A stretch of 64,000 nucleotides of DNA, from positions 1-64,000 of the IMG/VR virus record IMGVR_UViG_3300009130_000016; one strand, given 5' to 3'. This DNA comes from a virus. How positions within the stretch are numbered: position 1 is the first letter of the stretch; every line of letters begins with the position of its first letter. A program made the position numbers and the translations under genes. The notes below the pieces were generated by a model, which was given only the letters and a program-made list of their open reading frames with translations, was not told the origin of the DNA and ran no database searches. Of the stretch, positions 1-56,340 are shown in pieces.

Positions 1-316
1 TGTCAATCATTGCAAATTCAGTGCATGTAGGATTCCATACTATATAATAATCTGATTGATTATTCTTTTTTCTAATTGGGATATGAATTGTCGGGAAACG
101 GTTTTTAATTGCATCGAAAGGTTTCCTCATCTCATTCTCAAATGAAATACTTTCACCATCCTTCTCAAACATCAAGTCGTACTTTTTGTACTCCTCTTTA
201 TCTATGTCTCCTACTAAATGGTAACCCTTTGGCTCCATCATTTTAACTAAAGCTTCACGGCAAGGCTTATCCATTGTATCATAAGCCTCTTTGTTAAATT
301 TACGCTTTGTCTCCAT
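1..316 (-). CDS. Hypothetical protein, C-terminus cut by window edge
   Basis: The minus-strand frame opens with ATG at 316 and stays open for 105 codons to the window edge, so only the N-terminal part is seen. It begins METKRKFNKEAYDTMDKPC and is rich in charged residues. A segment near residues 50-75 has the pattern DLMFEKDGESISFENEM, followed by a beta-rich stretch ending YYIVWNP. The spaced acidic residues and following Lys are loosely like a PD-(D/E)XK nuclease core, but I cannot establish this. Its start overlaps the end of the upstream glycosyltransferase-like gene by 17 nt, so it is probably the next member of the same operon. Function unknown. Confidence 0.7.
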   Translation of the reverse strand, partial: METKRKFNKEAYDTMDKPCREALVKMMEPKGYHLVGDIDKEEYKKYDLMFEKDGESISFENEMRKPFDAIKNRFPTIHIPIRKKNNQSDYYIVWNPTCTEFAMID

Positions 317-1265
317 TGATTATTTTAATTTTAGTTTCATCAAAAAATTCATTAACAACTGGGGGCTTTGAATCAACGAATCTCATAACTTCATTGAAAT
401 TATCATTAATGTATTCATCTGTCTTTTCACCTTTTTTATACATTATTTTATCTGTGACAACTGATTTACAGTTACCTTTTCTTGAGTCATATATATTACC
501 AAACTCAGGATTGTCAACAAAAGCTATTCCGTTTGATAAAAGAACAACGTTTGATTTTATAGTCAAATTTTGATTTATAGCAGCTGAATCAGATATGTGA
601 AAAACACAATTTGCACATTGAAAAATAGCTACCATCTCACTATAATCATTTGTGCAATCTATTTCTTCATAGTTTTCTCTAAACTTAAGTCCATAAGGAT
701 TTAAAGTAGTGTTAATAACATACATTCCGTTATTTACTAGCTTTTCTATAATCTTATAGTAACTCCTATTGTAATGGCTTGTTCCATTTGTTTTATTATA
801 ATTTCTGGAATTTATCACTACATAAGGCTTTTTGTTTTTATATTTTTCATAATATTCCTCTGAAGATAAACACCAATTAAAATCATCTTTCTGAATTTTA
901 AACTGATTTTCAGTATATGAAAAAGATTCTTTGTATTGGTTTACGATGCTTTTATAACTACTAAGATTTTTTATTATTTTTTTGTCCCTATTATTTTTTG
1001 AAATTAACTCTATTGAATTCAATCTGTTTTGCAATATAGAGGAACTCTCATTATTTATGTTTTCTGAGTTTTTTGTATTTAACTCATCTCCTTCTATTAC
1101 CCATATTTCATCTGCATCAGGAAAACAAGATCTAAACTTGTATTCAGTTTGAATTATTGACTTATTACCTAGATCTTTCTCTTTTTTACAAAGATTATTA
1201 AAATGAGTTATATTGTTAAACTCCTTTTTAATATCAAAAATAAGTGATTGATTGTTATTTTTCAT
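300..1265 (-). CDS. Putative GT-B-like glycosyltransferase
   Basis: This 321-residue protein is the last complete gene of the glycan operon. The N-terminal third is low-complexity and Asn/Lys-rich. From about residue 145 it looks like the C-terminal half of a GT-B fold: a strand YVVINSRNYNK, a helix and strand (KLVNNGMYVINTT), then a segment MVAIFQCANCVFHISDSAA followed by NVVLLSNG, resembling the nucleotide-sugar-binding half of GT9/O-fucosyltransferase-type enzymes. There is no signal peptide or membrane segment. The start overlaps the fcl-like gene by 11 nt, so translation is probably coupled. The family assignment is inferred from shape only; a catalytic residue cannot be named. Confidence 0.75.
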   Translation of the reverse strand: MKNNNQSLIFDIKKEFNNITHFNNLCKKEKDLGNKSIIQTEYKFRSCFPDADEIWVIEGDELNTKNSENINNESSSILQNRLNSIELISKNNRDKKIIKNLSSYKSIVNQYKESFSYTENQFKIQKDDFNWCLSSEEYYEKYKNKKPYVVINSRNYNKTNGTSHYNRSYYKIIEKLVNNGMYVINTTLNPYGLKFRENYEEIDCTNDYSEMVAIFQCANCVFHISDSAAINQNLTIKSNVVLLSNGIAFVDNPEFGNIYDSRKGNCKSVVTDKIMYKKGEKTDEYINDNFNEVMRFVDSKPPVVNEFFDETKIKIINGDKA

Positions 1266-2415
1266 ACATAACTTTTTCTATTCTGTAATTGCCGTAACCG
1301 TTTTTAGACCAAAGTATCTTTTTGCCTTTAATTCCATTTGATAATATATCTTGATAAAGACCGTCAACCTCAGAAACTTTATCCCAAAAATCCCCTTTCT
1401 TACAAGAAACTTCCCAGGTTCCAGAAATAGCATCAAACCCTCCTTCTTTAGTCCAAAATTCAGCCCACTTTCCTGATATATTCATTTTGGTAATTGTGGA
1501 CATAACTAAGTTTTCGGAAACAGTATTGTAGGTTTTCAATAACCCTTCCTCTAAATCTGTAAATTTAAAGTAAGGCATTATTTCCATCATCTTTTTATTT
1601 GATACATCTTTTCTAAATTGCCCATCTGGCTTTGATGTATCGAAATCTAACTTAAGATGTTCTGATTTAGTAGCTACCAATGCTTTCTCTGCAATTTCTT
1701 TGATTGATAAGTTTTCAGAAACTGCAACGTTAAAACTATCGTAAATGTCTTTATCCAAACATTCAAATATAACTCTAGCTAAATCATTTGCATGCATAAA
1801 TTGTCTAAGTGGAGTACCTGTACCAAACAAAGGAATAACATCTTCACCGTAAATGTTTGCATTGTGAATCTTTTTTAGAAGAGCTGTTACAAAATGAGCC
1901 TTCTTATCATTTTCAAAGTTATCATGCTCTCCGTATAAATTCGAGGGAGTTAAGTATTGGTATTTGGTTCCATACTGTTGGTTGCAAGCATCAATTTGAA
2001 CTGCCAACGATCTCTTTGAATAACCGTAAGAGAAGTTTGTTTTAGTCGGAGGGCCTAGATGCATATCCTCTTCTTTCATTGGGTAGTTTTCAACTACATC
2101 TGGAAAGATACAAGTGGATAAGATTCCTATAAACCTTTTAACACCATTTTTTCTAGCATAATCCAACAACAACGTATTCATTAAAACATTATCATTGTAA
2201 TAATCGTAAGGTCTTTCTATATTGTCAATTATCCCACCTACCCTAGCTGCTAAGTGAATTATAACATCTGGCTCTAAGTCATAGAACATATTTTTAACAC
2301 CTTGATTTGTCGTTAGATCATAATCAGATGATGATAAATACACAGCATTTGGCAAAATTTTTTTTAGATATTTCCCAACCAAACCTGACCCACCAGTAAC
2401 TACAATATTATTCAT
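1255..2415 (-). CDS. fcl: GDP-L-fucose synthase (NAD-dependent SDR epimerase/reductase)
   Basis: It should convert GDP-4-keto-6-deoxy-D-mannose to GDP-L-fucose in the cytoplasm, the last step of fucose-donor synthesis. A Rossmann nucleotide-binding motif TGGSGLVG lies at residues 7-14, a DxxPDVIIHLAARVGG strand at 47-61, Ser/Thr/Cys at 100-102, and the SDR Tyr-x-x-x-Lys catalytic pair at Y130 and K134. The first 310 or so residues cover the usual family length. A further 70-residue tail (from MSTITKMNISGKWAEFW) is extra and unrecognised. Two fucosyltransferases sit upstream in the same operon and would use its product. The preceding enzyme, GDP-mannose 4,6-dehydratase, is not in the window and may lie to the left or come from the host. 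Confidence 0.92.
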   Translation of the reverse strand: MNNIVVTGGSGLVGKYLKKILPNAVYLSSSDYDLTTNQGVKNMFYDLEPDVIIHLAARVGGIIDNIERPYDYYNDNVLMNTLLLDYARKNGVKRFIGILSTCIFPDVVENYPMKEEDMHLGPPTKTNFSYGYSKRSLAVQIDACNQQYGTKYQYLTPSNLYGEHDNFENDKKAHFVTALLKKIHNANIYGEDVIPLFGTGTPLRQFMHANDLARVIFECLDKDIYDSFNVAVSENLSIKEIAEKALVATKSEHLKLDFDTSKPDGQFRKDVSNKKMMEIMPYFKFTDLEEGLLKTYNTVSENLVMSTITKMNISGKWAEFWTKEGGFDAISGTWEVSCKKGDFWDKVSEVDGLYQDILSNGIKGKKILWSKNGYGNYRIEKVMYEK

Positions 2416-3068
2416 TATTCTATATTAAATTCATAAGTATCAAATTTTCCGACAACTTCACAAGAATCGAAAATAGATTTAAAAAAATCTTCTTCACTAG
2501 ACAAGGCTTTTTCAATTTGCGTTTTGATAGGAGATATAAGTGTAAAAGATTTAAAGTAGTCTTCGCCAGTATCAACCTGCTCTATCCCATAGACACTATC
2601 GTCAATATCCCCTGGTTTAACATCACCTTTTATAAGACCTATAGTTAATTCAAAGTTACATAAAAATTTGCGACTAGAAAAAAACAAATTTTCTGACTGC
2701 AAGTGCCCTTCTAACAATTTAAAAGAATCTTTATAATAAAAACCTCTGGTATTTAAAATGCAATATCTATCAGCAGATATTTTTGAACCAACAGCCTCTT
2801 TGATACATTCTTTTTGATTGAACTCATCGTCTTCATCTACAGAAATATAAATGTAGTCAATATTGTTTTTCTTACAAAATCTTGAATGTTCTGGGTTTCT
2901 TGACATCTCTACAACAAGATAACCAACGTTTAAACTAGTTTCTTTTGATGCTGCCTCAAAAACGTCAAGCATTAAAGGTGCTAAGTTATAGTCACCACAA
3001 ACAGGTGAAATTAAAACTAGATCATATTCTAAATTCTTAGAATTGTTTTTAAATATAGTTTCATTCAT
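2415..3068 (-). CDS. Hypothetical, possibly degenerate GT-A glycosyltransferase
   Basis: This 217-residue protein starts with a strand YDLVLISPVCGDYNLAPLML, then GYLVVEMSRNPEHSRFC and YIYISVDEDDEFNQKEC. The order resembles the first half of a GT7/GT-A domain, in which a nucleotide-sugar-binding domain is followed by an FN-x-A-type helix. At the place where a DxD metal motif would be expected the sequence reads ILNTRGFYY, so metal-dependent catalysis is doubtful. It shares one base with the fcl stop/start junction and lies in the middle of the glycan operon. It may be an inactivated transferase or a partner protein. The assignment is inference. Confidence 0.7.
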   Translation of the reverse strand: MNETIFKNNSKNLEYDLVLISPVCGDYNLAPLMLDVFEAASKETSLNVGYLVVEMSRNPEHSRFCKKNNIDYIYISVDEDDEFNQKECIKEAVGSKISADRYCILNTRGFYYKDSFKLLEGHLQSENLFFSSRKFLCNFELTIGLIKGDVKPGDIDDSVYGIEQVDTGEDYFKSFTLISPIKTQIEKALSSEEDFFKSIFDSCEVVGKFDTYEFNIE

Positions 3069-3072
3069 ATGA

Positions 3073-3876
3073 TTAAATTTTTATCCAACCTTCACAGTAG
3101 ATATCTTTTGTATCGTGGTTTGAAAAAGCTGGACCGAACCAATTAGAAGGTGCTATAACAGTCTTATAAGGATTGTTATTAAGATAAGCAGCCCACCAAG
3201 AAAATGTACTATTACAAATGATATTGTGATCACAAAAGCTCATTGTGTATAAATCTTCAATGTCTGTTTGGTTTTCTACAAAGAAAAACTTTTCTGGCAA
3301 ATCAGGAAAGTTTTGCTTACACCATTCTATATCATCTGAAAATATCATAAAATAACAATCTTTGGGCATTTTTTTAACACCCTTAAGAAAGTATCCCATA
3401 CTCTGAACAGGATGATGATCTTGTATTTTAACATAATCCCCTCTCCTAACATGAATAGAACAAGTTGTATATTCTTTAGTTTTTAGAAAAGGAAACTTAG
3501 CGTATATTCGTTCTCTTGTTTTTTCATCACAAGAAAAAAGTTCAGATATTTCTTTGTCAAATCCTTCGAAATATTTATCCGACTGATAATACCCATGTAA
3601 ATAAACGTCTCCTTCTATTTTAGGTATTTCTGTATAATGAAATCCTGGCTCTACATAGCTTTGTGACTTTAAAACACTAGAGTCTATGTTTATGTTTCTT
3701 AGTATGTTATCTAAATAAACATCAATGCTTCTGTGTATCTGAGTAGAAGTTTGTGGATTAAAAATAGGGCTGTGTCCATTTTTTAAACCATAGGAATAAG
3801 CAGCTGCAATTTGAAACAAATAGTTTCCAAGTCCGCCCATTAAATTAGATGTTATATTATTTACTTTATTTACCAT
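3073..3876 (-). CDS. Alpha-1,2-fucosyltransferase (GT11)
   Basis: It should transfer L-fucose from GDP-fucose to the 2-position of a sugar, typically galactose. Family GT11 motifs are clear: GGLGNYLFQ at residues 14-22, HVRRGDY at 142-148 (GDP-fucose binding), SDDIEWCKQNF after that, and a C-terminal block NSTFSWWAAYLN followed by VIAPSNWFGP. The length of 267 residues is typical. The first 10 residues are Asn-rich and the start overlaps the preceding methyltransferase gene by 11 nt. With the GT10 gene and the fcl gene in the same operon, the phage appears to build a glycan carrying at least two fucoses. Confidence 0.93.
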   Translation of the reverse strand: MVNKVNNITSNLMGGLGNYLFQIAAAYSYGLKNGHSPIFNPQTSTQIHRSIDVYLDNILRNINIDSSVLKSQSYVEPGFHYTEIPKIEGDVYLHGYYQSDKYFEGFDKEISELFSCDEKTRERIYAKFPFLKTKEYTTCSIHVRRGDYVKIQDHHPVQSMGYFLKGVKKMPKDCYFMIFSDDIEWCKQNFPDLPEKFFFVENQTDIEDLYTMSFCDHNIICNSTFSWWAAYLNNNPYKTVIAPSNWFGPAFSNHDTKDIYCEGWIKI

Positions 3877-4558
3877 TCTTTTTAATTAAAAAGTTGTCCC
3901 AAGGTTTATTTCTCAGTATAGAAGCACGTTTATTATCAACCTCTATTAATTCACCATTATCTTCATCAAATAATTTATAATCATAATCATTGATGAATTC
4001 CATTATGTCAAAAATATCTTTGCCTATTTCAGTAATACAGTCTCCATATTCTATCTGAATATAATCAACAATACCTCTCTCAAGAGATTTTTTCATTCCT
4101 TTTAACACATTAAGCTCAAATCCTTCTGTGTCTATTTTTACAAATTTTACATTGCTAATGTTATTATCATCAATAAAATTGTCGAAAGTTATACAGTCAA
4201 CTTTTTTTTCATTTGTTTTATATTGACTAAAAACTTCACGTTTATTTAAACTGCTCATCCCTTCTACGTCATTGTTAGAATCTTCTAGTTCAAAAAAACT
4301 AACAGTTCCGACCTCATCAGAAACAGCTTTGTTTATAACAGATAAACTTTCAGAACTGTTAAATTTATCTTTCAATAATCCTGTAAATCGATCAGAAGCT
4401 TCAAATAGATAAACTTTGTGATCAGAGCCAAAATGTTCAATTAGAAAATCTGTATAAAAACCTTTATTAGCACCTATATCAAAGAAAGTATAGCTTTCTT
4501 CTTTTATTTGATTTTTTATGTAATTTGCAAAAAATCGTTCTTTTTTAGATATTTCCAT
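3866..4558 (-). CDS. FkbM-family methyltransferase
   Basis: This is an SAM-dependent methyltransferase. The class I motif FFDIGANKGFYTDF occurs at residues 25-38, an acidic end of beta-2 (YLFEAS) at about 50-55, and the FkbM signature VKFVKIDTEGFELNVLKGM at 137-155. FkbM enzymes O-methylate sugars or polyketides. Between two fucosyltransferase genes, the likely substrate is a sugar hydroxyl of the glycan made here. At 230 residues it is a single-domain form. The start overlaps the upstream GT10 gene by 14 nt and its end overlaps the GT11 gene by 11 nt, fitting coupled translation. Confidence 0.9.
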   Translation of the reverse strand: MEISKKERFFANYIKNQIKEESYTFFDIGANKGFYTDFLIEHFGSDHKVYLFEASDRFTGLLKDKFNSSESLSVINKAVSDEVGTVSFFELEDSNNDVEGMSSLNKREVFSQYKTNEKKVDCITFDNFIDDNNISNVKFVKIDTEGFELNVLKGMKKSLERGIVDYIQIEYGDCITEIGKDIFDIMEFINDYDYKLFDEDNGELIEVDNKRASILRNKPWDNFLIKKNGK

Positions 4559-5354
4559 TTTTAAGTATTTTATTCACTACGTAACTTAATCTGTCGTTTA
4601 ATGTAATGTATTTCTGAGCCAATTCAAAATTTCTATCAACCATTTCCTTTTTAGACGAATAGAACTCAGGGGTAATGCTATTACAAGCTTCTAGTATGTC
4701 TTTATGATTGTTTACTAGCAACATACCGTCTGTTTCAAAGAAATCTCCAATGTTTTCACAACCATAGTATATAGGTATCGTTTTTGTAATAAAGCAGTCT
4801 ATTAGTTTCTCTGTAAAGTAATTTCTCTGCCTAGAGTTTTCTATACAGATATGAAATTGAGAATCAAAAACTGGAGTCTTTGTTTCACTTAACACTTTAT
4901 TGTCAAAAGCATTTTCTACACCGCCAAATTTACTTATATAAAAGTCTTTTGGAATTTTAATCTTATTCTGCTTGTAGTGAACTTTTTTTCTAAGCCTATG
5001 ACCTTCCGTAACCTCTTTGTGCCCAGTTATGTTTGACACTTGATAAGTTTTATCTTTTGTTAAATCATAATCAAAAACCCAAGCGGTGCCAAAAGCTAAA
5101 AAGTATGAATTATCACAGTTATCTAAAACCTCTTGATCATAAGTTATTATAGCATCAAAAACTTCTTTATTTTCAATAACATGTTTTTTAAAGTGGATTA
5201 TCTCTTCGGCCTCTTTTAACCACATAATTTTAAAAGAATTAGATTCAGGATTTAATCCAGAGAAGCTGTCAATAAAAAGCTCTACCTTTTTATAAAAATT
5301 TATTTCCAAAGAAGGCCAACTTGAATCGGTGTTACTGTTAAGTATTTGTTTCAT
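4545..5354 (-). CDS. Alpha-1,3/1,4-fucosyltransferase (GT10)
   Basis: It should transfer fucose from GDP-fucose to the 3- or 4-position of GlcNAc or glucose. The hallmark GT10 donor-binding block is seen at residues 168-200: FHICIENSRQRNYFTEKL, then a helix and IPIYYGC. Upstream, KKVHYKQNK and FYISKF are consistent with the acceptor-binding half. The bacterial family usually has 300-450 residues, so 269 is short and there is no heptad-repeat tail. It overlaps the adjacent genes by 14-17 nt on both sides. Together with the GT11 gene it implies a difucosylated, Lewis-like structure, although the acceptor cannot be read from sequence. Confidence 0.88.
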   Translation of the reverse strand: MKQILNSNTDSSWPSLEINFYKKVELFIDSFSGLNPESNSFKIMWLKEAEEIIHFKKHVIENKEVFDAIITYDQEVLDNCDNSYFLAFGTAWVFDYDLTKDKTYQVSNITGHKEVTEGHRLRKKVHYKQNKIKIPKDFYISKFGGVENAFDNKVLSETKTPVFDSQFHICIENSRQRNYFTEKLIDCFITKTIPIYYGCENIGDFFETDGMLLVNNHKDILEACNSITPEFYSSKKEMVDRNFELAQKYITLNDRLSYVVNKILKNGNI

Positions 5355-6222
5355 TAAAATAAGTTTTCAATAATTCATATTGACTATTGTCATAATCTAA
5401 CCCATGATCAGTTCCGTAGAAAAGTTTGCAATATAAAGAATATCTCTTTAAAGCCCATTCTACATAACCCCTTGGAGTTTGACCAGGACCTTTTATATGA
5501 AACTTCATACCAGACCCTATGCCTGCAAAGTGAGATAGGTTATCTCCAAAATCCAAGTCTTTACATATATCTCCATAGGAATTAATTCTGTTTCCATTAG
5601 AATCTTGTGCTCCTACTTTTTGAAAATCCAGAAAGAAAGGCTTACCTCCGTTTTTTAGAATATCAAAAGAAACAGGGTCAAAGAAATCCAATATAGGATG
5701 TTTAAGAGGGTTATAAAACCCTACAATCATACTCCTAAGAGTAGGTAAATCATATTTGCTAATTTTGTTTTTATTAAAAGCATAAAAGTAAGTTTGGGAA
5801 ACGTCTTCCAAATCACCAAGGTCACTTCTATTGTTTAAGTTGTGCTTATAACATCTCCTTGGCCCTATTAAATCATATCCCTCTTTTATCTTGCTATCGA
5901 TAAGTGACAAGGATTCTTTTTTAAATATCACATCGCTATCAAAATGTAAAACATAATCAAAACCTTTAGAGTGTTCTAATATTACTTTTGAAAAAATGTG
6001 AGCAGTACCTAAGTGTCCACGTTCAAAGCATGCTTTAAGTTCTAAGTCTTCACTTGAATCTATGTATACTGCATTTTCAAAATCTCCTAAATCTTCAAAA
6101 TCTTTAACAGTTCCAAAAACATGAATTTTAGTGTCTGGATGGTATTTGAAAAAAGTTTCAAGGCACTTTTTTAGTATTAAACCGCAATTGTATGCTTCCG
6201 TAAAAATAAATGTATTATTCAT
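5338..6222 (-). CDS. GT-A-fold glycosyltransferase
   Basis: The frame is open from an upstream ATG at 6273, but ATG 6222 is preferred. It leaves only an 8-nt overlap with the upstream gene, in line with other junctions here, and starts the first beta strand (MNNTFIFTEAYNCG). The protein has 294 residues. A strand YVLHFDSDVIF carries an Asp-Ser-Asp metal motif near residue 95, as in nucleotide-diphospho-sugar transferases. A long C-terminal half follows with ESLSLIDSKIKEGYDLIGPRR. The donor and acceptor sugars are unknown. It lies directly before the GT10 gene. Confidence 0.8.
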   Translation of the reverse strand: MNNTFIFTEAYNCGLILKKCLETFFKYHPDTKIHVFGTVKDFEDLGDFENAVYIDSSEDLELKACFERGHLGTAHIFSKVILEHSKGFDYVLHFDSDVIFKKESLSLIDSKIKEGYDLIGPRRCYKHNLNNRSDLGDLEDVSQTYFYAFNKNKISKYDLPTLRSMIVGFYNPLKHPILDFFDPVSFDILKNGGKPFFLDFQKVGAQDSNGNRINSYGDICKDLDFGDNLSHFAGIGSGMKFHIKGPGQTPRGYVEWALKRYSLYCKLFYGTDHGLDYDNSQYELLKTYFNETNT

Positions 6223-7111
6223 TAATTCCTTGTTTTTGAATTTCGATGTATTGCTTTCTTCCTTTTTTTCCAAAGTTTCTAAATTGAAGCATGTAGCTCT
6301 CCATTTCCATTAACAAAGGATTTGTTCCAACTGAAGGAGGATGCCACATATGAAACATATCAATTAAAGGACTATCAGCATATGTAACTTCACCTAGTTT
6401 TGTTAAGCACTTATCCCAGAAAATCTGATCTTCAGCAGCATATCCCCAAAATAACTCTGGATCAAACCCACCTATGCTATAGTAAAATTCTCTCTCTACA
6501 AAAATAGAACCACCCTTAGAACCTAAGGCTGGAACTCCGTTATACATAGGCAAGCTAACTTCTTCTGTTTTTTCGCTAAACGAGTCTATGCTAACTTCTT
6601 TGTTTATAACTTTTTTAGTTAAGTTATCTGACATATACAAAACTCTTCTGCCTCCATATGTTTGCATGCACTTAGATTCTCCAAGATTTTCAAAAACTTC
6701 TTCAAAAAAATTTTCTTTTACCAAAATATCTAAATCATGAAGAAGGTAATATTTTGATTTGTTTGAGTATTTAACTCCGAAGTTATATGCAAAACTTCTG
6801 CTATATTGATCGGAAACGTTTCCAGGTGTCCAAATGTAATTGCAATCTATTTTATCTTGGTTTTTTGACTCTATATCATGCTCCACAAATGTTAAGCATA
6901 TTTTTATTTCTGGCCTAACGTTTTTGTAATAATCAATAGCTTTATTGAAAGAGTCTGCTACTGGCTTTATAAATTCAGGCCTACCTCTAAAACCAATTAT
7001 AACATTCACATCATATTCCTCATTTTTATTAATAAGTGATACAATTGAGTTTTTCCTAATATCATTATAAGAGAATCTGTTTAACTCTAAGTTTTCTATA
7101 ATGTCTTTCAT
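6215..7111 (-). CDS. Galactosyltransferase-like GT-A enzyme (GT7 C-domain)
   Basis: The 298-residue protein has an N-terminal strand DVNVIIGFRGRP at 34-45, a Asp-Leu-Asp metal motif (LLHDLDILV) at 124-131, and the block GGFDPELFWGYAAEDQIFWDK at 214-234. That last block is the acceptor/metal element of beta-1,4-galactosyl- and N-acetylgalactosaminyl-transferases (Glyco_transf_7C). A following FHMWHPP supplies a His that usually binds the metal. It probably adds a hexose or hexosamine to the growing glycan. Its start overlaps the GT2 gene stop by 4 nt (ATGA type), so translation is coupled. Confidence 0.85.
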   Translation of the reverse strand: MKDIIENLELNRFSYNDIRKNSIVSLINKNEEYDVNVIIGFRGRPEFIKPVADSFNKAIDYYKNVRPEIKICLTFVEHDIESKNQDKIDCNYIWTPGNVSDQYSRSFAYNFGVKYSNKSKYYLLHDLDILVKENFFEEVFENLGESKCMQTYGGRRVLYMSDNLTKKVINKEVSIDSFSEKTEEVSLPMYNGVPALGSKGGSIFVEREFYYSIGGFDPELFWGYAAEDQIFWDKCLTKLGEVTYADSPLIDMFHMWHPPSVGTNPLLMEMESYMLQFRNFGKKGRKQYIEIQKQGINE

Positions 7112-7869
7112 CTGTCAAGTTGTTTAAAAGGTTTTTTTTGAAGTATATCTCTATGTATCCTTTCTTGGTGTCTTAAATCCAATCTAAAATCTTGTATTGG
7201 ATTTGAATCGTTGTAGATATAAAGAACTTTTTCGTTATACTTAATTTTGTCGTATCCACATATTTCCATTATAGGGTACATCATAGCTACATCACAAGTC
7301 ATAGAATACCAGGTTCCATCTTCTTCTTTAAAACAAGAAAGATCTGGGTCTTGGTTTAATATCTCATGAAAAGTGAAAGCTTTAAATGTTCTTATGTGAG
7401 AAACATAAAATCTTGCTCCAGGGTTTCTTTTTTTGTTAAACTCTAACTCAGATTCATACTCTTTAGCGTTACCTTCTCTTCCTGACAAATACTTAGCCTG
7501 ACCATACATCATCCAGCAATCATTGTCTTCATAAAAACTATCAATAAAAGTTAAAACTTTTTTGTTTACTAACCAGTCATCTCCGTCTAATTGTACTACA
7601 ATATCATCTGGATCGCAGTGATTAAAAACAGCCCATTGCTGATTATACATTGCTCCCATTCTATTTTCGTTTACAATGTATTCATACTCACAGGTAATTG
7701 TAAAAGTTTGTATTAAGTCGCTTATTACCTTATCGCTATTATCGGTAGATGCGTCATTTACAATAACAACTTTATAATCACTATACCTTTGAGTAAAAGC
7801 TGACATTAAACATTTTTCTATGTATTTCTCAGCATTATAGAACGGTATGACAATTACAAATTTATTCAT
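7108..7869 (-). CDS. Family 2 glycosyltransferase (copy 2 of tandem pair)
   Basis: The N-terminal GT-A signature FVIVIPFYNAEKYIEKC (residues 4-20), VVIVNDASTDNS (34-45) and VVQLDGDDW (91-99, metal-binding Asp residues) identify an inverting GT2 enzyme. The protein is 253 residues, with no membrane segment. It aligns along its whole length with the neighbouring upstream gene, including EDGTWY...CDVAMMYPIMEICGYDKIKYNEK near the C-terminus, so the pair arose by tandem duplication and divergence. It overlaps both neighbours by a few bases. The sugar donor is not predictable. Confidence 0.9.
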   Translation of the reverse strand: MNKFVIVIPFYNAEKYIEKCLMSAFTQRYSDYKVVIVNDASTDNSDKVISDLIQTFTITCEYEYIVNENRMGAMYNQQWAVFNHCDPDDIVVQLDGDDWLVNKKVLTFIDSFYEDNDCWMMYGQAKYLSGREGNAKEYESELEFNKKRNPGARFYVSHIRTFKAFTFHEILNQDPDLSCFKEEDGTWYSMTCDVAMMYPIMEICGYDKIKYNEKVLYIYNDSNPIQDFRLDLRHQERIHRDILQKKPFKQLDR

Positions 7870-8626
7870 TTATCTTGTCAATTTTATTAAATGCTTTCTT
7901 TTGTAATATTTCTGCATGAATATCCCACTGCATTTTTTGCCTAACTCTGTCATCGCTGATAGGGTTTTCTCTATTGTATATGTATAAAGACTTGTCGTTA
8001 TACTTAACTTTATCAAAACCTGCCATTTCCATAATAGGATACATTATAGCAACATCATAAGTGCATCTATAAAACTTTCCATCATTATCTTTCATGCAAG
8101 AAAAACCAGGATCTTGATCTTGAATGTTTTGGTAAAGACCTGCAATGTAAGTTCTGATATGAGACACTCTAAATCCTGTCTCTCTAAGTCTATTAAATTC
8201 CTCTGGACTGTAAGCAGAAGCAACCCCCCTGGTTCCATTAGGGTTTTTGTCAGAGTTCGTCCAAGTAGATTGTCCATACATTATCCAACAATCGTTTTCG
8301 TTATAAAAATCATTGATATATGATAGGACTTTTTTGCTTTGTAGCTTATCGTCACCGTCTACAAGAACAACAATATCGTCAGGTTCACAGTGATCCATTG
8401 TAGCATTGTGAATATTTTCAAGTGCAGTAAGATTAACCCTGTTCTTTATGCATATCACCCTTTCATCACCATGTGGTAATTTATCCCAAGAGTCATCTGT
8501 TGATGCGTCATCAATAAAAATAACTTTAAAGTTATCATATTTTTGTGTCATAATACTATTGACACAACCCTCAATGAATTCACTTGCATTATAGAATGGT
8601 ACTATTATTTTAAAACTGTTGTTCAT
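7862..8626 (-). CDS. Family 2 glycosyltransferase (copy 1, first gene of glycan operon)
   Basis: This is the promoter-proximal gene of the minus-strand glycan operon. GT2 motifs are FKIIVPFYNASEFIEGC at residues 5-21, VIFIDDASTDDSW at 35-47, and VVLVDGDDKL at 86-95 with the metal-binding Asp cluster. It has 254 residues and is paralogous to the next gene, sharing the C-terminal YDVAIMYPIMEMAGFDKVKYND block. No copy of the TATTTAT box is seen on the minus strand within the 117-nt gap before it, so this operon may be transcribed from a different, host-type or early promoter. Confidence 0.9.
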   Translation of the reverse strand: MNNSFKIIVPFYNASEFIEGCVNSIMTQKYDNFKVIFIDDASTDDSWDKLPHGDERVICIKNRVNLTALENIHNATMDHCEPDDIVVLVDGDDKLQSKKVLSYINDFYNENDCWIMYGQSTWTNSDKNPNGTRGVASAYSPEEFNRLRETGFRVSHIRTYIAGLYQNIQDQDPGFSCMKDNDGKFYRCTYDVAIMYPIMEMAGFDKVKYNDKSLYIYNRENPISDDRVRQKMQWDIHAEILQKKAFNKIDKINE

Positions 8627-8743: not shown

Positions 8744-9136
8744 ATGGCAACTAATAAGAAAACTATCACAGAAGGAGCGGTTATCAAAATGATCGAAGAA
8801 ACTGCTAAATTCAAAACAGCTAAGAAAGAGATCTGGAAAAAAGCAATTGCTCTTAATGAGGAGTTAAAAACTTTACAAGAAGGTCATCAAGGATTTGCTG
8901 CATCTTTCGGATTCGATACTGCAGGAGATACTTCAAATGTATCTAAAACTGGATTTGTTCAAGACATTGGGCCAATTTCTAGCCTTACCTCTCTTGGTGC
9001 TGAAATTCAAGCTGCAAATGAAGCTGCTATTGCTGCAGAAGCTAAAGCTGCTGAAGATGCTGCTATCAACGAAAACATGGTAGACGTAATCAAAGAATTA
9101 CAAAAAGAAATCGCTAGTCTTAAAGCTGGTAAATAA
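8744..9136 (+). CDS. Hypothetical virion-associated protein
   Basis: I do not recognise this 130-residue protein. It is helical throughout: a Lys-rich N-terminal half (KMIEETAKFKTAKKEIWKK), a short Gly/Ser linker around residues 55-75, and an Ala/Glu-rich C-terminal coiled coil ending VIKELQKEIASLKAGK. It is the first gene of a plus-strand unit preceded by a late-promoter-like box and is followed 22 nt later by an acidic core-type protein. The context suggests a head or core component. No signal peptide or membrane segment. Confidence 0.8.
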   Translation: MATNKKTITEGAVIKMIEETAKFKTAKKEIWKKAIALNEELKTLQEGHQGFAASFGFDTAGDTSNVSKTGFVQDIGPISSLTSLGAEIQAANEAAIAAEAKAAEDAAINENMVDVIKELQKEIASLKAGK

Positions 9137-13547: not shown

Positions 13548-13603
13548 TTTCTAATTATGTACCATAAGATCATTGTGAACTTGGACAATGGTAATTTTTT
13601 GAC

Positions 13604-13611
13604 TATTTATA
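13604..13611 (+). promoter_or_regulatory. Late-promoter-like box TATTTATA
   Basis: TATTTATAACCAAAAAA ends 17 nt before ATG 13629. Its position within the longer frame from 13557 decides the start of the endonuclease gene. Confidence 0.55.
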
Positions 13612-13628
13612 ACCAAAAAAATAACTAC

Positions 13629-14549
13629 ATGAGAAATTGGTCACAAAAAGAAATAGATTTTTTAAAAGAACATTATCCAACTAAAGGAAATAAGTTTTGT
13701 GCAGAATCACTAGGCAAGTCCTCAAAGCAAATAAGAACATGCACTAAAAAACTAGAATTAAAATCAACTTTAAGAAAAACGAAAGAACAAACATTAAAAG
13801 AACTAAAAAAATACAATTATCATAAAAATGGAGAAGAACACTTTGGTGTAAGATTGTGTCCAAAATGTAATAATAAAATTAAACATAAAGCTCAAAATGA
13901 GTCATATCTATTAAGAAACATTAAAAGATTAGAGTTAAGAAACGCTTTTTGTTTAAGTTGTTCAAAAACTGGAGAAAGCAATCCTTTTCATGGAAAACAA
14001 CATACACAAAAAAGTAAAGAACAAGTTTCTAGAAATAGATCTGGTAAGGCTTGTGGAAAAGACAACTCAATGAGCAATCCAGTTCACAGAAAAAAAGTAT
14101 CTGATATACTCAAAGTAAAATATGCCAGTGGTGATCTAGATTTTCAAAAAGAGATACAAAGAAAAACAATGATCAAAAATATCAAAAATGGAAAGTTGAA
14201 ATGTACTCTAATCTCTAAAGCAGAAACTGAGTTAAAAAAAGAACTTGAAGATAAAGGGTTAAAAATAAATCAACAATTTTCCATTGGCACTTTAAAATAT
14301 GATTTACTTTTATTAGATTCTAATATTCTTATAGAATACAATGGTGATTACTGGCATTGCAACCCAGAGAAGTATGATAAAGATTACTTTAATCAAAAAA
14401 AGAACATGTATGCACATGAGCTTTGGAAAAAAGATGCAGATAAAAAGAAATTGGCAGAAGACAATGGATACAAAGTAATCACAATTTGGGAACAAGATTA
14501 CAAAAATAATAAGGAAGAACAAATAAAGAAAATACTTAAAGAGATATGA
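13629..14549 (+). CDS. Homing-type endonuclease (zinc, NUMOD3 and Vsr-like EDxHD domains)
   Basis: The 306-residue protein starts at ATG 13629 (MRNWSQKEIDFLKEHY); the longer frame from 13557 is rejected because the promoter box lies in it. Domain order: Myb/SANT-like DNA-binding helices (1-45), a CPKC...CLSC zinc ribbon, NUMOD3-type repeats (ESNPFHGKQHTQKSKEQVS and DNSMSNPVHRKKVSDI), and a C-terminal nuclease with LIEYNGDYWHCNP followed by KKLAEDNGYKVITIWEQDY. The last part is the Vsr-like EDxHD core of free-standing homing endonucleases such as I-Bth0305I. It is a mobile element-like gene inserted among head genes. It overlaps the next gene by 4 nt, which may carry the glycosyltransferase with it. 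Confidence 0.85.
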   Translation: MRNWSQKEIDFLKEHYPTKGNKFCAESLGKSSKQIRTCTKKLELKSTLRKTKEQTLKELKKYNYHKNGEEHFGVRLCPKCNNKIKHKAQNESYLLRNIKRLELRNAFCLSCSKTGESNPFHGKQHTQKSKEQVSRNRSGKACGKDNSMSNPVHRKKVSDILKVKYASGDLDFQKEIQRKTMIKNIKNGKLKCTLISKAETELKKELEDKGLKINQQFSIGTLKYDLLLLDSNILIEYNGDYWHCNPEKYDKDYFNQKKNMYAHELWKKDADKKKLAEDNGYKVITIWEQDYKNNKEEQIKKILKEI

Positions 14550-15856
14550 GTGAAAATAAAAAAATAAGAGTTCTTATGTGTCCGAGTGACGGACAGGGAG
14601 TTGGTCATTTCCGCTCTATTTGGCCTGCACAAGCAATCCAAAAATTTCATAGTGAAGATTTTGAAGTAGAAGTAAACCCAAACCCAAATGTTGATAACTT
14701 AGAATATTTTAAGAGATTCGACATTGTTCATTTCCATAGACACTTGGGTCCAAAAGAAAAAGAAGACGAAACCTTCAGGGGTTTAAAAGGTCTTGGAATT
14801 TCAGTAATCATGGATATTGATGACTATTGGGAGCCATTCTATGCACACCCTCTTTATCAAATAATTAAACAAGAAGGTTTAGCACAGAAGATTTCAACAA
14901 CAATACCAAAAGTAGATTATGTCACAACAACGACATCTGTTTTTGCTGATGAAATCAAAAAGTTAAACCATAATGTCCAAGTAATACCTAACGCTGTTGA
15001 TCCTAATGCAAAAATGTGGAGACACAATGAGACGAGATTAGAAGGGGACGAAAGATGCCGTATCGCTTGGATAGGTGGTTCATCTCATCTTGATGATTTG
15101 ATGTTAATGAACAACTCAATGGGTAAGTTATATAACAACAAAGAGTTGTCTGATAAATTCCAAATGATTCTTTGTGGATTTGACACAAGAGGAACAATTA
15201 CAGAGATTGATAAATTAGGTAGACAAAAAACCAGACCTATTCTTCCTCATGAAACTGTTTGGAATAAATTTGAGCATATCTTCACTGGTGGATTAACCCC
15301 AAGTGCAGATAACTCATATTCAGGCTTGTTAGACGATCCAGACTATGTTAAATGGCTAAGAAAAATTGAGAAAAAAGAAGATCACAATGTATTGGAGAAA
15401 AAATACATGAGAAGATGGACGCTACCATTGACTCAATATGCTAAACACTACGATTATTGTGATGTTTGCTTGGCACCTCTAAATCACATCGATGAGATTA
15501 TAACACCAAAAGGGCAGGTTATCAAAAACGAGAATGTTTTCAATAAAGTTAAATCTGAATTGAAGATCATTGAGTCTGGTATGAAAAAGAAAACCTTGAT
15601 TGCTCAAGACTTCGGTATTTATAGTAAACTCATTGAGGACGGAAAGAATGGTATTCTTATCCCGACAAACAAAAACGATAAAGAGTGGTATAAAGCTATG
15701 AGAAAAGTGATTCTTGATAAAGATTATAGGGACGATCTTGCCAATAACTTACACGAGTTTGTTGTAGACAAATATAGTTTAGAAAATGTAACCAAAGACA
15801 GGGTTGCTTTCTATAAGCAAATTGTTAAAGAAAAGAAAAAAGCTGTTACTATTTAG
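14546..15856 (+). CDS. GT-B glycosyltransferase (family 4-like)
   Basis: This 436-residue cytoplasmic glycosyltransferase begins with IRVLMCPSDGQGVGHFRSIWPAQAI, the acceptor-side GT-B strand with a glycine loop. It continues with a FDIVHFHR strand and VIPNAVDP linking the two domains. The donor-binding half has IAWIGGSSHLDDL, then FNKVKSELKIIESGMKKKTLIAQDFG, where the second Glu before the helix matches the E-x7-E nucleotide-sugar site, and NGILIP. It is remote from the main glycan operon and lies among virion genes, so it could glycosylate a virion component. The start overlaps the endonuclease stop by 4 nt. A terminator overlaps its stop codon. Confidence 0.87.
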   Translation: MSENKKIRVLMCPSDGQGVGHFRSIWPAQAIQKFHSEDFEVEVNPNPNVDNLEYFKRFDIVHFHRHLGPKEKEDETFRGLKGLGISVIMDIDDYWEPFYAHPLYQIIKQEGLAQKISTTIPKVDYVTTTTSVFADEIKKLNHNVQVIPNAVDPNAKMWRHNETRLEGDERCRIAWIGGSSHLDDLMLMNNSMGKLYNNKELSDKFQMILCGFDTRGTITEIDKLGRQKTRPILPHETVWNKFEHIFTGGLTPSADNSYSGLLDDPDYVKWLRKIEKKEDHNVLEKKYMRRWTLPLTQYAKHYDYCDVCLAPLNHIDEIITPKGQVIKNENVFNKVKSELKIIESGMKKKTLIAQDFGIYSKLIEDGKNGILIPTNKNDKEWYKAMRKVILDKDYRDDLANNLHEFVVDKYSLENVTKDRVAFYKQIVKEKKKAVTI

Positions 15857-20083: not shown

Positions 20084-21739
20084 ATGAGCGGAATTTTAAA
20101 CTCAGGTAACGTAGGTTTGACTAACATCAAAACTCTTGCCGAACAAAGAAAAGCTATCGTTTCTAACTGGGATAACTCAGGATTGTTAGAAGGATTGAAA
20201 GGTATGAAAAAGTCCAACATTGCTCAGTTGCTTGAAAACCAAGCTGCTAACATGTTGAACGAGGTTACTTTAGATTCATCTGCTGGTAGATTCGACACAG
20301 TAGCGTTCCCAATCGTGAGAAGAGTATTCTCTAGATTATTGGCTAACGAATTAGTTTCAGTACAACCATTAGCACTTCCTTCAGGATTGTTATTCTATTT
20401 AGATGCGAAAGTTTCTTTCAATGGAGCTGACAACACTTTTGATAACCAAATTGGAAGAGCTGCTGAACTTGCTGGACAACAAAAAGTATCTCCAAAAAAT
20501 GATGCAAACGGACAAGCTGGTCCTCAATTCGCAGACACTACTGCATACGAAAGATTCTACAACAACAAAGGATTTGACCTTTCTTTTGGACAAGGTACAA
20601 CAAACTTAGCTGGTGTTGTTAACAATACAGCTACTGCTGCTGATGCTGCAAACGGACTTCTTCCATTGACTATGGATTTAGGTGCTGGATATGACGTTTC
20701 TAAATCTCAGTCTTCTTCTACTTTAAGATTTACTGCTTCTACGGATCTTTATTATTCTTCAGGATCAGAAAACATCTTATTAGTTGCTGCTGGTGAAGAG
20801 CTTCCTTTCTATCACGGAATCCAAGATTACTCTTTAGATTTATTTGATTCTCAAATGGCTAAAGTTGTTTTTGATCTTAGACCTGCGTCTGTAGAAGGAT
20901 CTAACTTTAACTCATCAATGGTTAATGATGAAACAAACTTCGGTGCTGCTTTAACATTGGAAATTAAGCCTTTATACGAGGTATTTAATGACCTTGAAGC
21001 GAGTTCTGAAATGGCTGAATTGACTATTCAATTCTCATCTGTTACTGTATTTACTGTAACTAGAAAATTAAGAGCTCACTGGACTCCAGAATTAGCTCAA
21101 GATTTAGAGGCTTACCACTCTATCGATGCTGAAGCAGAATTAACTGCACTTCTTTCTGAGCACATTGCTGCTGAGGTTGACAGAGAAATCATCATCGACT
21201 TGATTAACGAAGCTCCATTCAGAGCTAGATGGGATTATAACGGTTTACAAAACAATGCTAACTTCTTCGGAACGCAAAAGGATTGGAACCAAACTTTAAT
21301 CACAAGAATCAACGAAATATCTGCACAAATTCACAAAGCAACATTGAGAGGTGGAGCTAACTGGGTAGTTTGTTCTGCAGAAGCTGGTGCGATTTTTGAT
21401 GATTTAGAATACTTCCACGTTGCTGGTTCTGCATCTCCAGAGCAAGAAAAATACAACTTGGGTGTTGAGAAAATCGGAAATTTAGGAAACAGATACACAA
21501 TCTTCAAAGATCCTTATTTACCTGCTGAGATCGTATTAATCGGTCACAAAGGAAATACTTTCTTAGAAGCTGGTTACATCTACGCTCCTTACATTCCTTT
21601 ACAATTAACGCAAACTATTTATGATCCAAACGACTTCACACCTCGTAAAGGTATCATGACTAGATACGCTAAGAAAATGGTTAATAACAGATTCTATGGT
21701 GTAATTGTAGTTGATAATATCAGAACTTACGCTGTATAA
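20084..21739 (+). CDS. 23: Major capsid protein (T4 gp23-like)
   Basis: This is the main shell subunit of the head. The N-terminal section NIAQLLENQAANML (residues 46-59), then AFPIVRRVFSRLLANELVSVQPLALPSG (76-103), is the conserved gp23 block, and the C-terminal VVVDNIRTYAV-type ending also matches. The length of 551 residues is close to T4 gp23 (521). The protein is expected to be processed near residue 50-65 by the gp21-like protease; a site of aliphatic-x-Glu type occurs at LLE/NQ, but the exact cut is not shown. Codon choice is notably regular (AAC, AAA, GGA, GCT), as expected for a highly expressed gene. A strong terminator follows. Confidence 0.95.
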   Translation: MSGILNSGNVGLTNIKTLAEQRKAIVSNWDNSGLLEGLKGMKKSNIAQLLENQAANMLNEVTLDSSAGRFDTVAFPIVRRVFSRLLANELVSVQPLALPSGLLFYLDAKVSFNGADNTFDNQIGRAAELAGQQKVSPKNDANGQAGPQFADTTAYERFYNNKGFDLSFGQGTTNLAGVVNNTATAADAANGLLPLTMDLGAGYDVSKSQSSSTLRFTASTDLYYSSGSENILLVAAGEELPFYHGIQDYSLDLFDSQMAKVVFDLRPASVEGSNFNSSMVNDETNFGAALTLEIKPLYEVFNDLEASSEMAELTIQFSSVTVFTVTRKLRAHWTPELAQDLEAYHSIDAEAELTALLSEHIAAEVDREIIIDLINEAPFRARWDYNGLQNNANFFGTQKDWNQTLITRINEISAQIHKATLRGGANWVVCSAEAGAIFDDLEYFHVAGSASPEQEKYNLGVEKIGNLGNRYTIFKDPYLPAEIVLIGHKGNTFLEAGYIYAPYIPLQLTQTIYDPNDFTPRKGIMTRYAKKMVNNRFYGVIVVDNIRTYAV

Positions 21740-36123: not shown

Positions 36124-39100
36124 ATGGCAGAAAATAATAAAGGTACAATTTTTCAGAGAGCTTTACATGCTTTCAGAAAGGATCCTAGATCGGGAATAAA
36201 TCAAGCACCAATGGGTCACACCCCAATGGCAAGCACACAAAATATGGATGGATACCCAACGAGGGTAAACCCATCAAGTCCAGTAAATTCGCTTGAACAT
36301 CAACAACAACAATATCTTGACTGGCAAATGGATGCTATTGCTCAAGATATTTACACTAGAACTGTATATTATGATACAGATAGGGTTGGTGCATATCAAG
36401 ACTACAATGCAATGGATCATTCACCAGAGATTGCTGCAGCACTTGATATAATCAGAGATGAATGTTTAGTAAGAAACGAAAGGGGTAATATTCTTGAGAT
36501 ATATTCTGAAAATGATCGTGTAAAGGAAGTTCTTAAAGACCTGTTTAATAACAAGCTTAATGTTGAATATAACATGAGGTTATGGATTCGTGAATTGGTG
36601 AAAAAGGGAGATTTCTTTTTACATTTACACATTGACGGAGAAGGTCGTAAAGGTGTTTATGACGTAATGGCTTTGCCTGCTGAAGAGATTCATCGTGAAG
36701 ACGGTGTTGATGGAATGATTGATAACACAAGGTTCCGTTGGGATAGTAAAAACATGTATTTCGAGGAATGGCAAATTGCACATTTCAGATTAATAGAAGA
36801 CACAAAAAGATTACCATACGGTAGATCGATGTTGGATCCAGCTAGAAAGCTTTGGAAACAATTACAGCTATCAGAAGATGCAATGCTAGTTTACAGATTA
36901 GCAAGAGCTCCTGAGAGAAGAGTTTTTTACATTGATGTTGGGAATATTGATGATGCCGATGTAAAACAATATATCGATCAAGTTAAATTGTCTGTTAAGG
37001 GGCAACCAGTGGTTAATTCGAAAACTGGAGACATTAGTAGAAAGTTTAATCCAGCTCATGTTGAGGAAGATTTCTTTATTCCAATTAGAGGTGATAAGTC
37101 TTCGAAGATTGAAACATTGCCTGGAGCGTGTCTTGCATTGGATACAGAAATATGTTTACTTGATGGTCGAAATTTGGAACTTAATGAAATAATTGAAGAA
37201 TTTAAAGTAAATAAAAATCTTTGGTCATACTCTATTAATCCAGAAACAGGAGAAATTGTTCCTGGTAAAATCACTTGGGCTGGTGTAACTAGAAAAGATA
37301 CAGAAGTTGTGAAAATCACTCTTGATAACGGTGAAACGATAACTACAACTCCAGATCACAAATTTCCTACTAGATTTAATGGAATTAAGGAAGCAAAAGA
37401 TTTGCAACCAAACGAGTCTCTTTGGTCATTTAATAAGAAACTTGCTCCTGTGTCAAAAGACACAAGGAAGAAAAGAAATGATTATGAAATGGTTTTTGAT
37501 CATTCTAGTAATGATTGGGTTTACACTCATAGATTGGTAGCAAATTATTTTAAATCTTTAGGTGAGCATAATGAATTGGTGTTTAATGAAAGTAGTTCTG
37601 ATAAATCAAAGCAAACTATTCATCACCAGGATTATGATAGATTTAATAATAATCCAAGTAATCTTCACTTTATGAACAATAAAGATCATAGAGATTTGCA
37701 TGCTGACAATATTTATGAATGGTCTAAACTTGGCGTTGAAGCTTGGATGAAAAAGTTTGATAATGATGAAGAATTTAAGCAAGAGGTTTTATTAAGGTTA
37801 GAAAAAAGTAGAACTGAATATTATGCCAATAGAGATGGGGAGACAACTCAAAAACACAATGAATCAATCTCGAAAGGTATAAAAGAATATTTTAACAATA
37901 TAAGTAAAGAAGAGGCAGAGAGAAGAAAGGGAATAAATATTAAAAATATTTCTGGTGCAAATGCAAGACTTAAAGAGTTAATGCAAGATGAGTGTTTTAA
38001 ACAAGAAATGTATGAGAAATCTTCAAAAAATCTTAAGATAGTTAAAAACACTCCTGAGTATAAGGAGATACAAAGTGGTATTTCTAAAAATTTGTGGAAA
38101 GATGAGTCTTATAGAAATGCAATAGCAGAGAAGCAAACAATTAAGTATGCAGACTCAATGTTGCAATTTGTAGTTAATCTTTATAAAAAAGGATTTTCTG
38201 CAAAAGATATTGTAATTGCAATAAATGAAGAGGGGTCTACTTTTATGGAGGCTTTCAATTCATTAAACGAAGGAAACAAGCAGCTTAAGAAGATGGAAAA
38301 CGGGTTTACCCATAATAACCTTGTTAAGTTAATGTCTCATTTCGGGTATGACAATTGGAGAGATTTCAAAAACAAAGCAGAGTTATTTAATCACAGGATT
38401 GTATCTATTGAGTTCTTGGAAGAGAAAGTTGACACTGGTACAATCACCATCGATGGAGGTGAGAAATATCACGATCACCATAACTTCGCATTGGCATCTG
38501 GTGTGTTTACACAGAATTCAAATATGGGAGACATTGCTGATATCGAATATCTTGAAAACAAATTGTTTGCAGCATTAAAAGTTCCAAAGCCTTATTTGAA
38601 CTATGCTGAATCAATGCCAGGTGGATCAATGTTATCGCAGGCTGATTTACGTTTTGCAAGAACAATTAACTCTATACAAGAATCTGTTTTGATGGAATTA
38701 AGAAGAATAGCTAATATTCACTTAATGTTCACAGGGTTCGAAGATGATATTGATAACTTCACTTTGACGTTAACAAATCCTTCGTCTCAACAAGAGTTGT
38801 TAAACTTGGAAACATGGAGAACAAGACTTGAGATATTTAAGGAAATGTTTAATACAGAGCCAGGATCACCAACGTCATACACTTGGGCTATGGAGAATAT
38901 TTTAGGGTTTTCTCAAGCAGAAATTAAATTAATGTTTAAGCAGAAGAAAGTTGAGAAGAAATTATTCACCGAAATTGAAGCTGCTGCTGAAACATATAAG
39001 AAAATCGGATTGTTTAAGGATCTAGATAAGAGGTATGAAGATCCAGAAAAGGCTGCTGCTGCCGAAGGAGGTGGAGCTGAAGGTGGTGGAGAAGACGAAT

Positions 39101-56311: not shown

Positions 56312-56318
56312 ATCTTAT

Positions 56319-56326: not shown

Positions 56327-56340
56327 AGAAAAACTAATTT

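Follow-up and report, generated by a model that had tools for sequence, protein, structure and literature searches.

A glycan gene island adjoining the head genes of a jumbo phage at a conserved location, and its candidate sugars

The window analysed here (64,000 nt of the virus record IMGVR_UViG_3300009130_000016) carries the head-proximal part of a glycan island, next to the phage head genes and at a place where every relative checked has an exchangeable cassette for sugar synthesis. We put it just short of an even chance that soluble enzymes of this island make an O-methylated glycan from a GDP-L-6-deoxy- or 3,6-dideoxyhexose, most likely for a virion protein. The host, the identity of the sugar, the order of the glycan, its acceptor and its benefit are what we infer.

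Phage Lineage and Host

With 82.9 kb, the record covers part of a jumbo phage whose relatives measure 372 and 389 kb, and position 1 of the window is the end of the record, where the operon is cut by the contig end. The major capsid protein (MCP; 20084–21739, plus strand; phrog_138, 8.8e-66), with relatives at 62–89% in IMG/VR, served as the lineage marker. Flavobacterium and Rhodothermus phages are among its nearest cultured relatives and the phage sequence is depleted in Shine-Dalgarno motifs; since both observations fit a Bacteroidota host, the phage probably infects this group. MAG contigs bearing the capsid gene pointed to conflicting hosts (Deltaproteobacteria, Prochlorococcus, Paludibacteraceae and Euryarchaeota) and were set aside; they are probably mis-binned phage contigs. 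A DNA similarity search of the window against known phages returned nothing useful.

A Fixed Site With Shuffled Genes

The island begins at the same place in every relative checked (G001, G003/G004, G005, G006, and G011). Their shared order is MCP, a GT4-like gene, p11450 and, in some, p8744, followed divergently by GT2b. The head-side border gene in the window (8744–9136, plus strand) is divergent from the operon and of unknown function; in G003, G004, G005, and G011 a homologue marks the corresponding border. Near the island start, all of the relatives checked have a GT2b homologue (40–72% identical), and the other genes are shuffled. The far border, wherever a contig reaches it (G001, G003, G005, G006, and G011), is a phrog_1745 gene, which also adjoins the island of G012. 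The order GT11-(o03)-SDR-o01 in the window is the same as in G005, where ColD, GMD and the border come next. A single glycosyltransferase reported earlier at 14546 among the head genes is borne out: the gene (14546–15856, plus strand) encodes a GT4-like GT-B enzyme (phrog_7162, 1.2e-31; PF00534, 6.3e-6, just under the cut-off) that is syntenic in all relatives and 52–60% identical.

Genes of the Operon

The earlier note described a glycan operon of ten genes, and all ten ORFs are indeed present at 300–8626 on the minus strand, overlapping or tightly packed, with families supported for two GT2 enzymes, GT10, GT11, FkbM and an SDR. The first gene, GT2b (7862–8626; PF00535, 4.5e-17), is followed by its paralogue GT2a (7108–7869; PF00535, 1.7e-18; 47.5% identical by blastp) and by a GT7-like (GT7C-like) GT-A glycosyltransferase (6215–7111), which has an HDLD motif, a 54% homologue in G001 and a PF02709 match below the cut-off (3.6e-4). 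Next comes a GT-A-like glycosyltransferase (5338–6273) matching no family, with an invariant DSD motif and homologues in G001 (63%) and G005 (50%). Its N-terminal half was modelled as GT-A-like, in a low-confidence model whose best Foldseek match is LgtC (1.2e-4). The annotated TTG start lies too far upstream, as aligned homologues begin near residue 18 (about 6222), and the true start is probably near 6222.

The GT10 gene (alpha-1,3/4-fucosyltransferase family; 4545–5354; PF00852, 3.6e-7, 30.4 bits against a cut-off of 23.9) matches H. pylori FucT (2nzw, 2.9e-8), with the donor-site stretch conserved. The FkbM-family methyltransferase (3866–4558; PF05050, 2.1e-22, and TIGR01444, 1.5e-25, both over the cut-off) is probably a sugar O-methyltransferase. 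GT11 (alpha-1,2-fucosyltransferase family; 3073–3876; PF01531, 8.3e-33, 114 bits, over the cut-off) has the HxRRGD motif as HVRRGD and is 26% identical to the GT11 of the E. coli O55 colitose cluster, a member of the same family.

Two genes had previously been left as less clear transferases. One of them (2415–3068) can now be placed as a shortened GT7-like paralogue (tblastn 1.9e-14 and 2.2e-15 to GT7-like genes of G005 and G004, respectively); the HDLD/DxD motif is lost in the alignment, and the product is possibly inactive or a subunit. The other (300–1265) stays a putative GT-B-like transferase, with a TIGR04372 match below the cut-off (9e-5) and a 30% homologue in G005 between a GFS-like gene and ColD. 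No close viral relatives of this protein were found, and its AlphaFold model (pLDDT 28.6) was discarded. An eleventh ORF, whose 5' part (1–318, minus strand) runs off the contig end, has no Pfam match and no close homologue in the relatives. Hydropathy detected no transmembrane segments in the operon.

A promoter scan of the operon gave no more sites than shuffled sequences. The motif ATAAATA was rejected as a late promoter, being commoner in the opposite orientation. An oriented box, CTATTTAT, lies ahead of the divergent head gene at 8744 and is absent at the operon start.

Fucose or Colitose

The SDR (1255–2415, minus strand; PF01370, 1.4e-46) consists of a GDP-L-fucose-synthase/ColC-like domain (residues 1–303) and an 83-aa C-terminal extension that resembles a 107-aa ORF in G009. 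It had been called a GDP-L-fucose synthase; the assignment to the GFS family stands, but fucose cannot be told from colitose as its product. Among solved structures it is most similar to human GDP-L-fucose synthase (4b8w, 1e-60), and it keeps the catalytic Ser107, Cys109, Tyr136, Lys140, and His179 (E. coli Fcl numbering), with Arg187 replaced by Lys in all viral sequences aligned. Its identities with E. coli Fcl and ColC are 28% and 30%, respectively, and its 186 bits on NF047922 do not reach the curated equivalog score of 500 bits. In the tree it falls in a fully supported viral clade, with E. coli ColC and Fcl both outside. Annotation labels cannot separate the two sugars because, in the E. 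coli O55 colitose cluster, ColC is annotated as “GDP-L-fucose synthase family protein” and GT11 as “alpha-1,2-fucosyltransferase”. By sequence alone, ColC and Fcl are not separable.

ColD, a PMP-dependent GDP-colitose 3-dehydratase of the DegT family, is defined by replacement of the catalytic Lys by His. In the phage ColD homologues, His occupies the position of residue 188 of the E. coli enzyme, and Lys-type paralogues occur in the same loci. Perosamine synthesis, with DegT acting as an aminotransferase, was ruled out by this His and by the best match to ColD. Both ColD and GMD adjoin all four of the nearest sequences in the SDR tree (L028, L217, G005, and G012), so the “at least two fucoses” of the earlier note was an overstatement. 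GMD is present in G001, G003, G005, and G012, and neither GMD nor ColD (as a DegT match) was found in the 82.9-kb record. The pathway differs between relatives and may draw on intermediates of the host, since G006 lacks both ColD and a confident GMD, and G011 encodes ColD without GMD. The sugar in the relatives is probably colitose (3-deoxy-fucose) rather than, or besides, fucose, and the product in the window may be GDP-L-colitose, GDP-L-fucose or both.

It is possible, though we lean against it, that the operon makes only L-fucose, with GMD off the contig or supplied by the host, ColD absent, and both GT10 and GT11 genuinely transferring fucose. The human structural match and the presence of two fucosyltransferase families would agree with this, as would cyanophage S-SRM01, which has GMD and GFS and in which ColD was not found in the stretch searched. 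However, at loci found through GFS or GT11 and not through ColD, a His-type 3-dehydratase lies no more than about 5 kb from every GFS relative that is at least 45% identical. The question of L-fucose alone concerns only the sugar and is compatible with either acceptor.

Phage-encoded ColD looks common: the His-type enzyme occurs in each of the 80 top viral contigs that were read, and more exist. Such enzymes carry the labels “aminotransferase” or “hypothetical”, so the ability of phages to make rare sugars has probably been under-recognised, and many phage “fucose” calls need rechecking. Only 2 of 296 Bacteroidota genomes have a ColD match at 1e-60 (36% identical), thus no recent donor was found. 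Our search of the open-licence literature turned up no colitose pathway described as encoded by a phage.

Possible Role of the Glycan

The mechanism that we propose places soluble phage enzymes in the host cytosol, where they would produce a GDP-activated sugar, an L-6-deoxy- or 3,6-dideoxyhexose, and put together a glycan that is short, branched and O-methylated. The last step towards the GDP-sugar, C5 epimerisation and C4 reduction, would fall to the SDR and yield GDP-L-fucose, or GDP-L-colitose if ColD lies just past the contig end, as in the closest relatives. We would assign the backbone to the two GT2, GT7-like and GT-A enzymes, the fucose or colitose branches to GT10 and GT11, and capping by O-methylation to FkbM. 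The acceptor would most likely be a virion protein, with an early sugar added by the GT4-like enzyme of the head cluster; the outer part would come from the island and vary, like an “O-antigen of the virion” altered by cassette turnover. Among the three roles suggested earlier (virion, DNA and host surface), decoration of the virion appears to fit best, by analogy with chloroviruses; surface modification is the lesser possibility and DNA modification is disfavoured.

Remodelling of the host surface, by extending or capping LPS, capsule or S-layer glycans and so blocking competing phages or re-adsorption of progeny, seems to us somewhat unlikely. A similar cyanophage cluster was read as host cell-wall modification by the authors of S-SCSM1 (PMC9602691), GT2, GT10, and GT11 are typical of O-antigen clusters, E. 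coli O55 has GMD, ColC, ColD, and GT11, and lipid-linked intermediates at the inner membrane are accessible to soluble glycosyltransferases. On the other hand, hydropathy revealed in the islands no membrane protein of the flippase, polymerase, polyprenyl-phosphate glycosyltransferase or ligase kind; the O55 cluster, by contrast, has wzx and wzy. The island also keeps its place next to the head cluster, which itself contains a conserved glycosyltransferase. Serotype conversion of the GtrABC type, which uses a GtrA flippase, a membrane-anchored GtrB and a membrane Gtr, is disfavoured: the operon shows no transmembrane segment, no Gtr/Wzx/Wzy-like membrane protein was found in the islands, and the GT2 genes match a GtrB-like PHROG weakly, through the GT2 domain.

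A more specific form of virion decoration strikes us as rather unlikely. Here, Bacteroidota jumbo phages would carry a viral “O-antigen locus” of exchangeable cassettes next to the head genes, make GDP-L-colitose with phage GMD, ColD, and ColC, and build a serotype-like, O-methylated virion coat through the head-linked glycosyltransferase.

Glycosylation of phage DNA (hypermodified pyrimidines) as a shield against restriction is very improbable. Phage glycosyltransferases are known to glycosylate DNA, and G001, G002, and G003 encode a PF00303 protein, but those of G001 and G003 are ThyA-like, with the canonical motif PFNIASYALL (Asn). Asp at this Asn position marks dCMP hydroxymethylase. No T4-type dCMP hydroxymethylase was thus found in G001 or G003, the 82.9-kb record yielded no PF00303 protein, and a set of ten varied glycosyltransferase-pathway genes that includes a nucleotide-sugar enzyme looks more like a route to an oligosaccharide. 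A polysaccharide cluster captured recently from a host, without adaptive value, might account for the lower GC of the operon (0.30–0.31 vs. roughly 0.34 elsewhere), the shuffled gene content and the two genes that look degenerate or uncertain, but it is hardly credible given the conserved location and neighbouring GT2b (40–72% identity) in all relatives, the intact catalytic residues and the virus-specific SDR clade.

If the virion glycan is indeed self-made and cassette-swapped, it would be a phage analogue of bacterial O-antigen variation, with relevance to adsorption, defence evasion, grazing or immune recognition.

Comparison With Known Systems

The earlier view that phages rarely encode this much of a glycan pathway does not hold, as 102 phage records contain relatives of GT11 and 197 contain relatives of GFS, and cyanophages S-SRM01 and ACG-2014f have comparable runs of glycan genes. 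Cyanophage S-SCSM1 encodes GMD, GFS, and fucosyltransferases (PMC9602691). Like the window, the cyanophage clusters (S-SRM01, S-SCSM1, ACG-2014f, and P-SSM2) combine GFS, GT10 and/or GT11, a methyltransferase and several glycosyltransferases in one run, to which they add GMD; for example, gp223–gp227 of ACG-2014f (NC_026927) are GMD, GFS, a ColD-type enzyme (annotated “aminotransferase”), GT11, and a methyltransferase. Unlike the window, they belong to Kyanoviridae of cyanobacteria and lie elsewhere in the genome (near photosynthesis genes in S-SRM01), and their proteins are mostly about 30–40% identical or less to those of the window. The Moraphages, aquatic jumbo phages that infect Bacteroidota and reach 307 kb in genome size, have four core glycosyltransferase groups, with no nucleotide-sugar pathway described (PMC12619734).

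The O-antigen cluster of E. coli O55 shares the ColC-ColD pair, GMD, GT11, and GT2 with the phage islands, but it is chromosomal and includes Wzx/Wzy, ManB/ManC, and a GDP-mannose hydrolase, whereas the islands show no membrane export parts and the phage SDR has only the 30% identity to E. coli ColC noted above. Virion glycosylation in mycobacteriophages, a different phage group, uses a much smaller set of known enzymes. Their glycans are described on capsid and tail tube (Freeman et al. 2023, as cited in PMC12619734). Chlorovirus PBCV-1 encodes GMD and GMER, its own glycosyltransferases and a methyltransferase domain, and with its own enzymes makes GDP-fucose and a capsid glycan containing fucose and methyl groups (PMC9614988). 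PBCV-1, a eukaryotic NCLDV with an N-glycan proven on its capsid, resembles our phage in its virus-encoded glycosyltransferases, methyltransferase and GFS-family enzyme; in our phage, a virion protein is the most likely acceptor.

Gene content of the operon

Between positions 300 and 8626, ten ORFs on the minus strand overlap or are spaced by gaps of a few bases. Together with family searches, this layout bears out an earlier note's description of a ten-gene glycan operon. The searches confirmed two GT2 glycosyltransferases, GT10, GT11, an FkbM methyltransferase and an SDR enzyme resembling GDP-L-fucose synthase (Fcl), and gave weak support to the GT7-like assignment. The product of 5338–6273 (minus strand) is a putative GT-A enzyme: its DSD motif is invariant, and its structure model, confident in part, has LgtC as the closest solved structure. 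Of two genes previously left less clear, o03 (2415–3068, minus strand) now reads as a shortened GT7-like paralogue in which the HDLD motif is absent; o01 (300–1265) has a sub-threshold glycosyltransferase match as its sole family signal, and the model of its product was of too low quality for use. An eleventh ORF crosses the left contig end. The single extra glycosyltransferase noticed among the head genes (14546–15856, plus strand) was recovered by family searches as a GT4-like GT-B enzyme. Immediately ahead of it lies a probable NUMOD3/MTES_1575 homing endonuclease (13557–14549).

Phage lineage and host

The window covers bases 1–64,000 of an 82,901-base IMG/VR fragment, and its portal, terminase, sheath and capsid are those of the T4-like supergroup. 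Capsid relatives (62–89%) occur on IMG/VR contigs, including G001 (372,283 bp), while G003 (388,594 bp) carries a capsid 77% identical to the window's and a relative (72%) of GT2b, the first gene of the operon (7862–8626). Given the size of these relatives, the window derives from a jumbo phage, and the absence of a gene from the fragment is therefore little informative. The cultured relatives of the major capsid protein (20084–21739) align in two pieces over ~62% of its length, which suggests a lineage-specific middle segment.

Shine-Dalgarno motifs were found at 1 of 64 window starts vs. 10 of 64 in-gene control positions, with the same direction in G001, G003 and the related contig G005. 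Such depletion is expected in Bacteroidota phages. The nearest cultured capsid relatives comprise first a Microcystis phage, with Flavobacterium phages and RM378 also among them. We assign the host to Bacteroidota with moderate confidence. An oriented CTATTTAT box lies 20–37 bases ahead of many starts in the lineage (e.g., window 8744, 17373, 27874, 34289, and 53042), possibly as a promoter or translation signal in place of Shine-Dalgarno.

The portal gene (36124–39669) has an insertion containing an HNH endonuclease, probably an intein; a related insertion in G004 apparently occupies another position. At locus L002 (8391–12338), a stretch resembling an intein, together with a separate ORF, seems to split the ribonucleotide reductase large-subunit region.

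A fixed island site with variable content

Five relatives (G001, G003, G005, G006, and G011; G004, a near-copy of G003, was counted alongside it) share the order capsid, 18569 homologue, GT4-like gene (52–60% across them), 11450 homologue and, usually, 8744 homologue. After these head-side genes, a divergent island opens with GT2b (40–72%) at or close to its start. Deeper in, GT7-like, GT-A, GT10, GT11, FkbM and SDR genes occur in differing sets and orders among other sugar genes, and a phrog_1745 gene forms the far border wherever the contig extends to it. This fixed site with variable gene content recalls the layout of bacterial O-antigen loci. A thioredoxin-like gene stands at the island start in G005 (56285–56593) and locus L006 (187–534).

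Fucose or colitose

In the SDR (1255–2415), the residues that perform catalysis in E. coli Fcl are conserved, and the protein aligns to human GDP-L-fucose synthase with an E-value of 1e-60, yet it reaches 186 bits on the curated Fcl model against a cut-off of 500. In relatives, a DegT-family enzyme lies beside it whose best solved match is the GDP-colitose enzyme ColD of E. coli (5e-59; perosamine synthase, 7.5e-33). ColD is defined by a histidine in place of the aminotransferase lysine (PMC8987622). At the position of E. coli ColD residue 188, all 25 DegT homologues of a first set carry histidine; in a second scan, it was read directly in 78 of the best 80 viral contigs with ColD homologues, the other two readings being second, Lys-type paralogues (~24% identical) that serve as an internal control. 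Within fetched flanks, an SDR relative accompanies 59 of these 80, and both SDR and GDP-mannose 4,6-dehydratase (GMD) accompany 47, with coupled SDR-ColD-GMD trios at loci L028 and L217. Phylogenetically, the window SDR falls within a fully supported viral clade that excludes E. coli Fcl and ColC, closest to L028, L217, G005 and G012, all of which have ColD and GMD. Taken together, these sequence comparisons indicate that the SDR could make GDP-fucose, GDP-colitose or both. That "fucose" labels mislead is evident in E. coli O55, where ColC is labelled "GDP-L-fucose synthase family protein" and the cluster's GT11 "alpha-1,2-fucosyltransferase."

Because the G005 order (GT11-SDR-o01 homologue-ColD-GMD-border) parallels that of the window (GT11-o03-SDR-o01, then contig end), ColD and GMD are predicted just past the left end. 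This stays a prediction, since G011 lacks GMD and G006 lacks both. The C-terminal 83–86 residues of the SDR (1255–1515) resemble a stand-alone 107-aa ORF in G009 (29%, 1e-6), a possible domain fusion. In G003, GMD (L164:3596–5608, i.e., 123596–125608) is a single 670-aa frame that includes an insertion of ~330 aa around residue 233, a probable intein within an enzyme of nucleotide-sugar synthesis; GMD is uninterrupted in other relatives.

Acceptor of the glycan

A simple hydropathy test predicted no transmembrane segments in any operon protein and recognized no flippase, polymerase or lipid-carrier glycosyltransferase in the islands, although a few other island ORFs, small or with misassigned starts, did score. 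The lack of recognized membrane parts, the location next to the head genes and the glycosyltransferase conserved among those genes favour a glycan that would be assembled in the cytosol on virion proteins, as in PBCV-1. The main rival is that the enzymes modify the host surface, the interpretation given for cyanophages. Glycosylation of phage DNA, another role suggested earlier, is disfavoured.

Comparison with known clusters

The supposed rarity of such pathways in phages is not supported: clusters of the same kind are known in cyanophages, so there is precedent for the operon as such. ACG-2014f cyanophages encode GMD, GFS (GDP-L-fucose synthase), a ColD-type enzyme, GT11 and a methyltransferase side by side. 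The ColD-type enzymes of cyanophages (NC_026927 gp225 and relatives) are labelled "aminotransferase" or "hypothetical protein" despite the His motif FGHHMTTIEGG. Searches of open-licence literature turned up no account of a colitose pathway in a phage. What is new is a head-adjacent site that stays fixed while its cassettes turn over within a lineage of jumbo phages, together with the possible dideoxyhexose twist.
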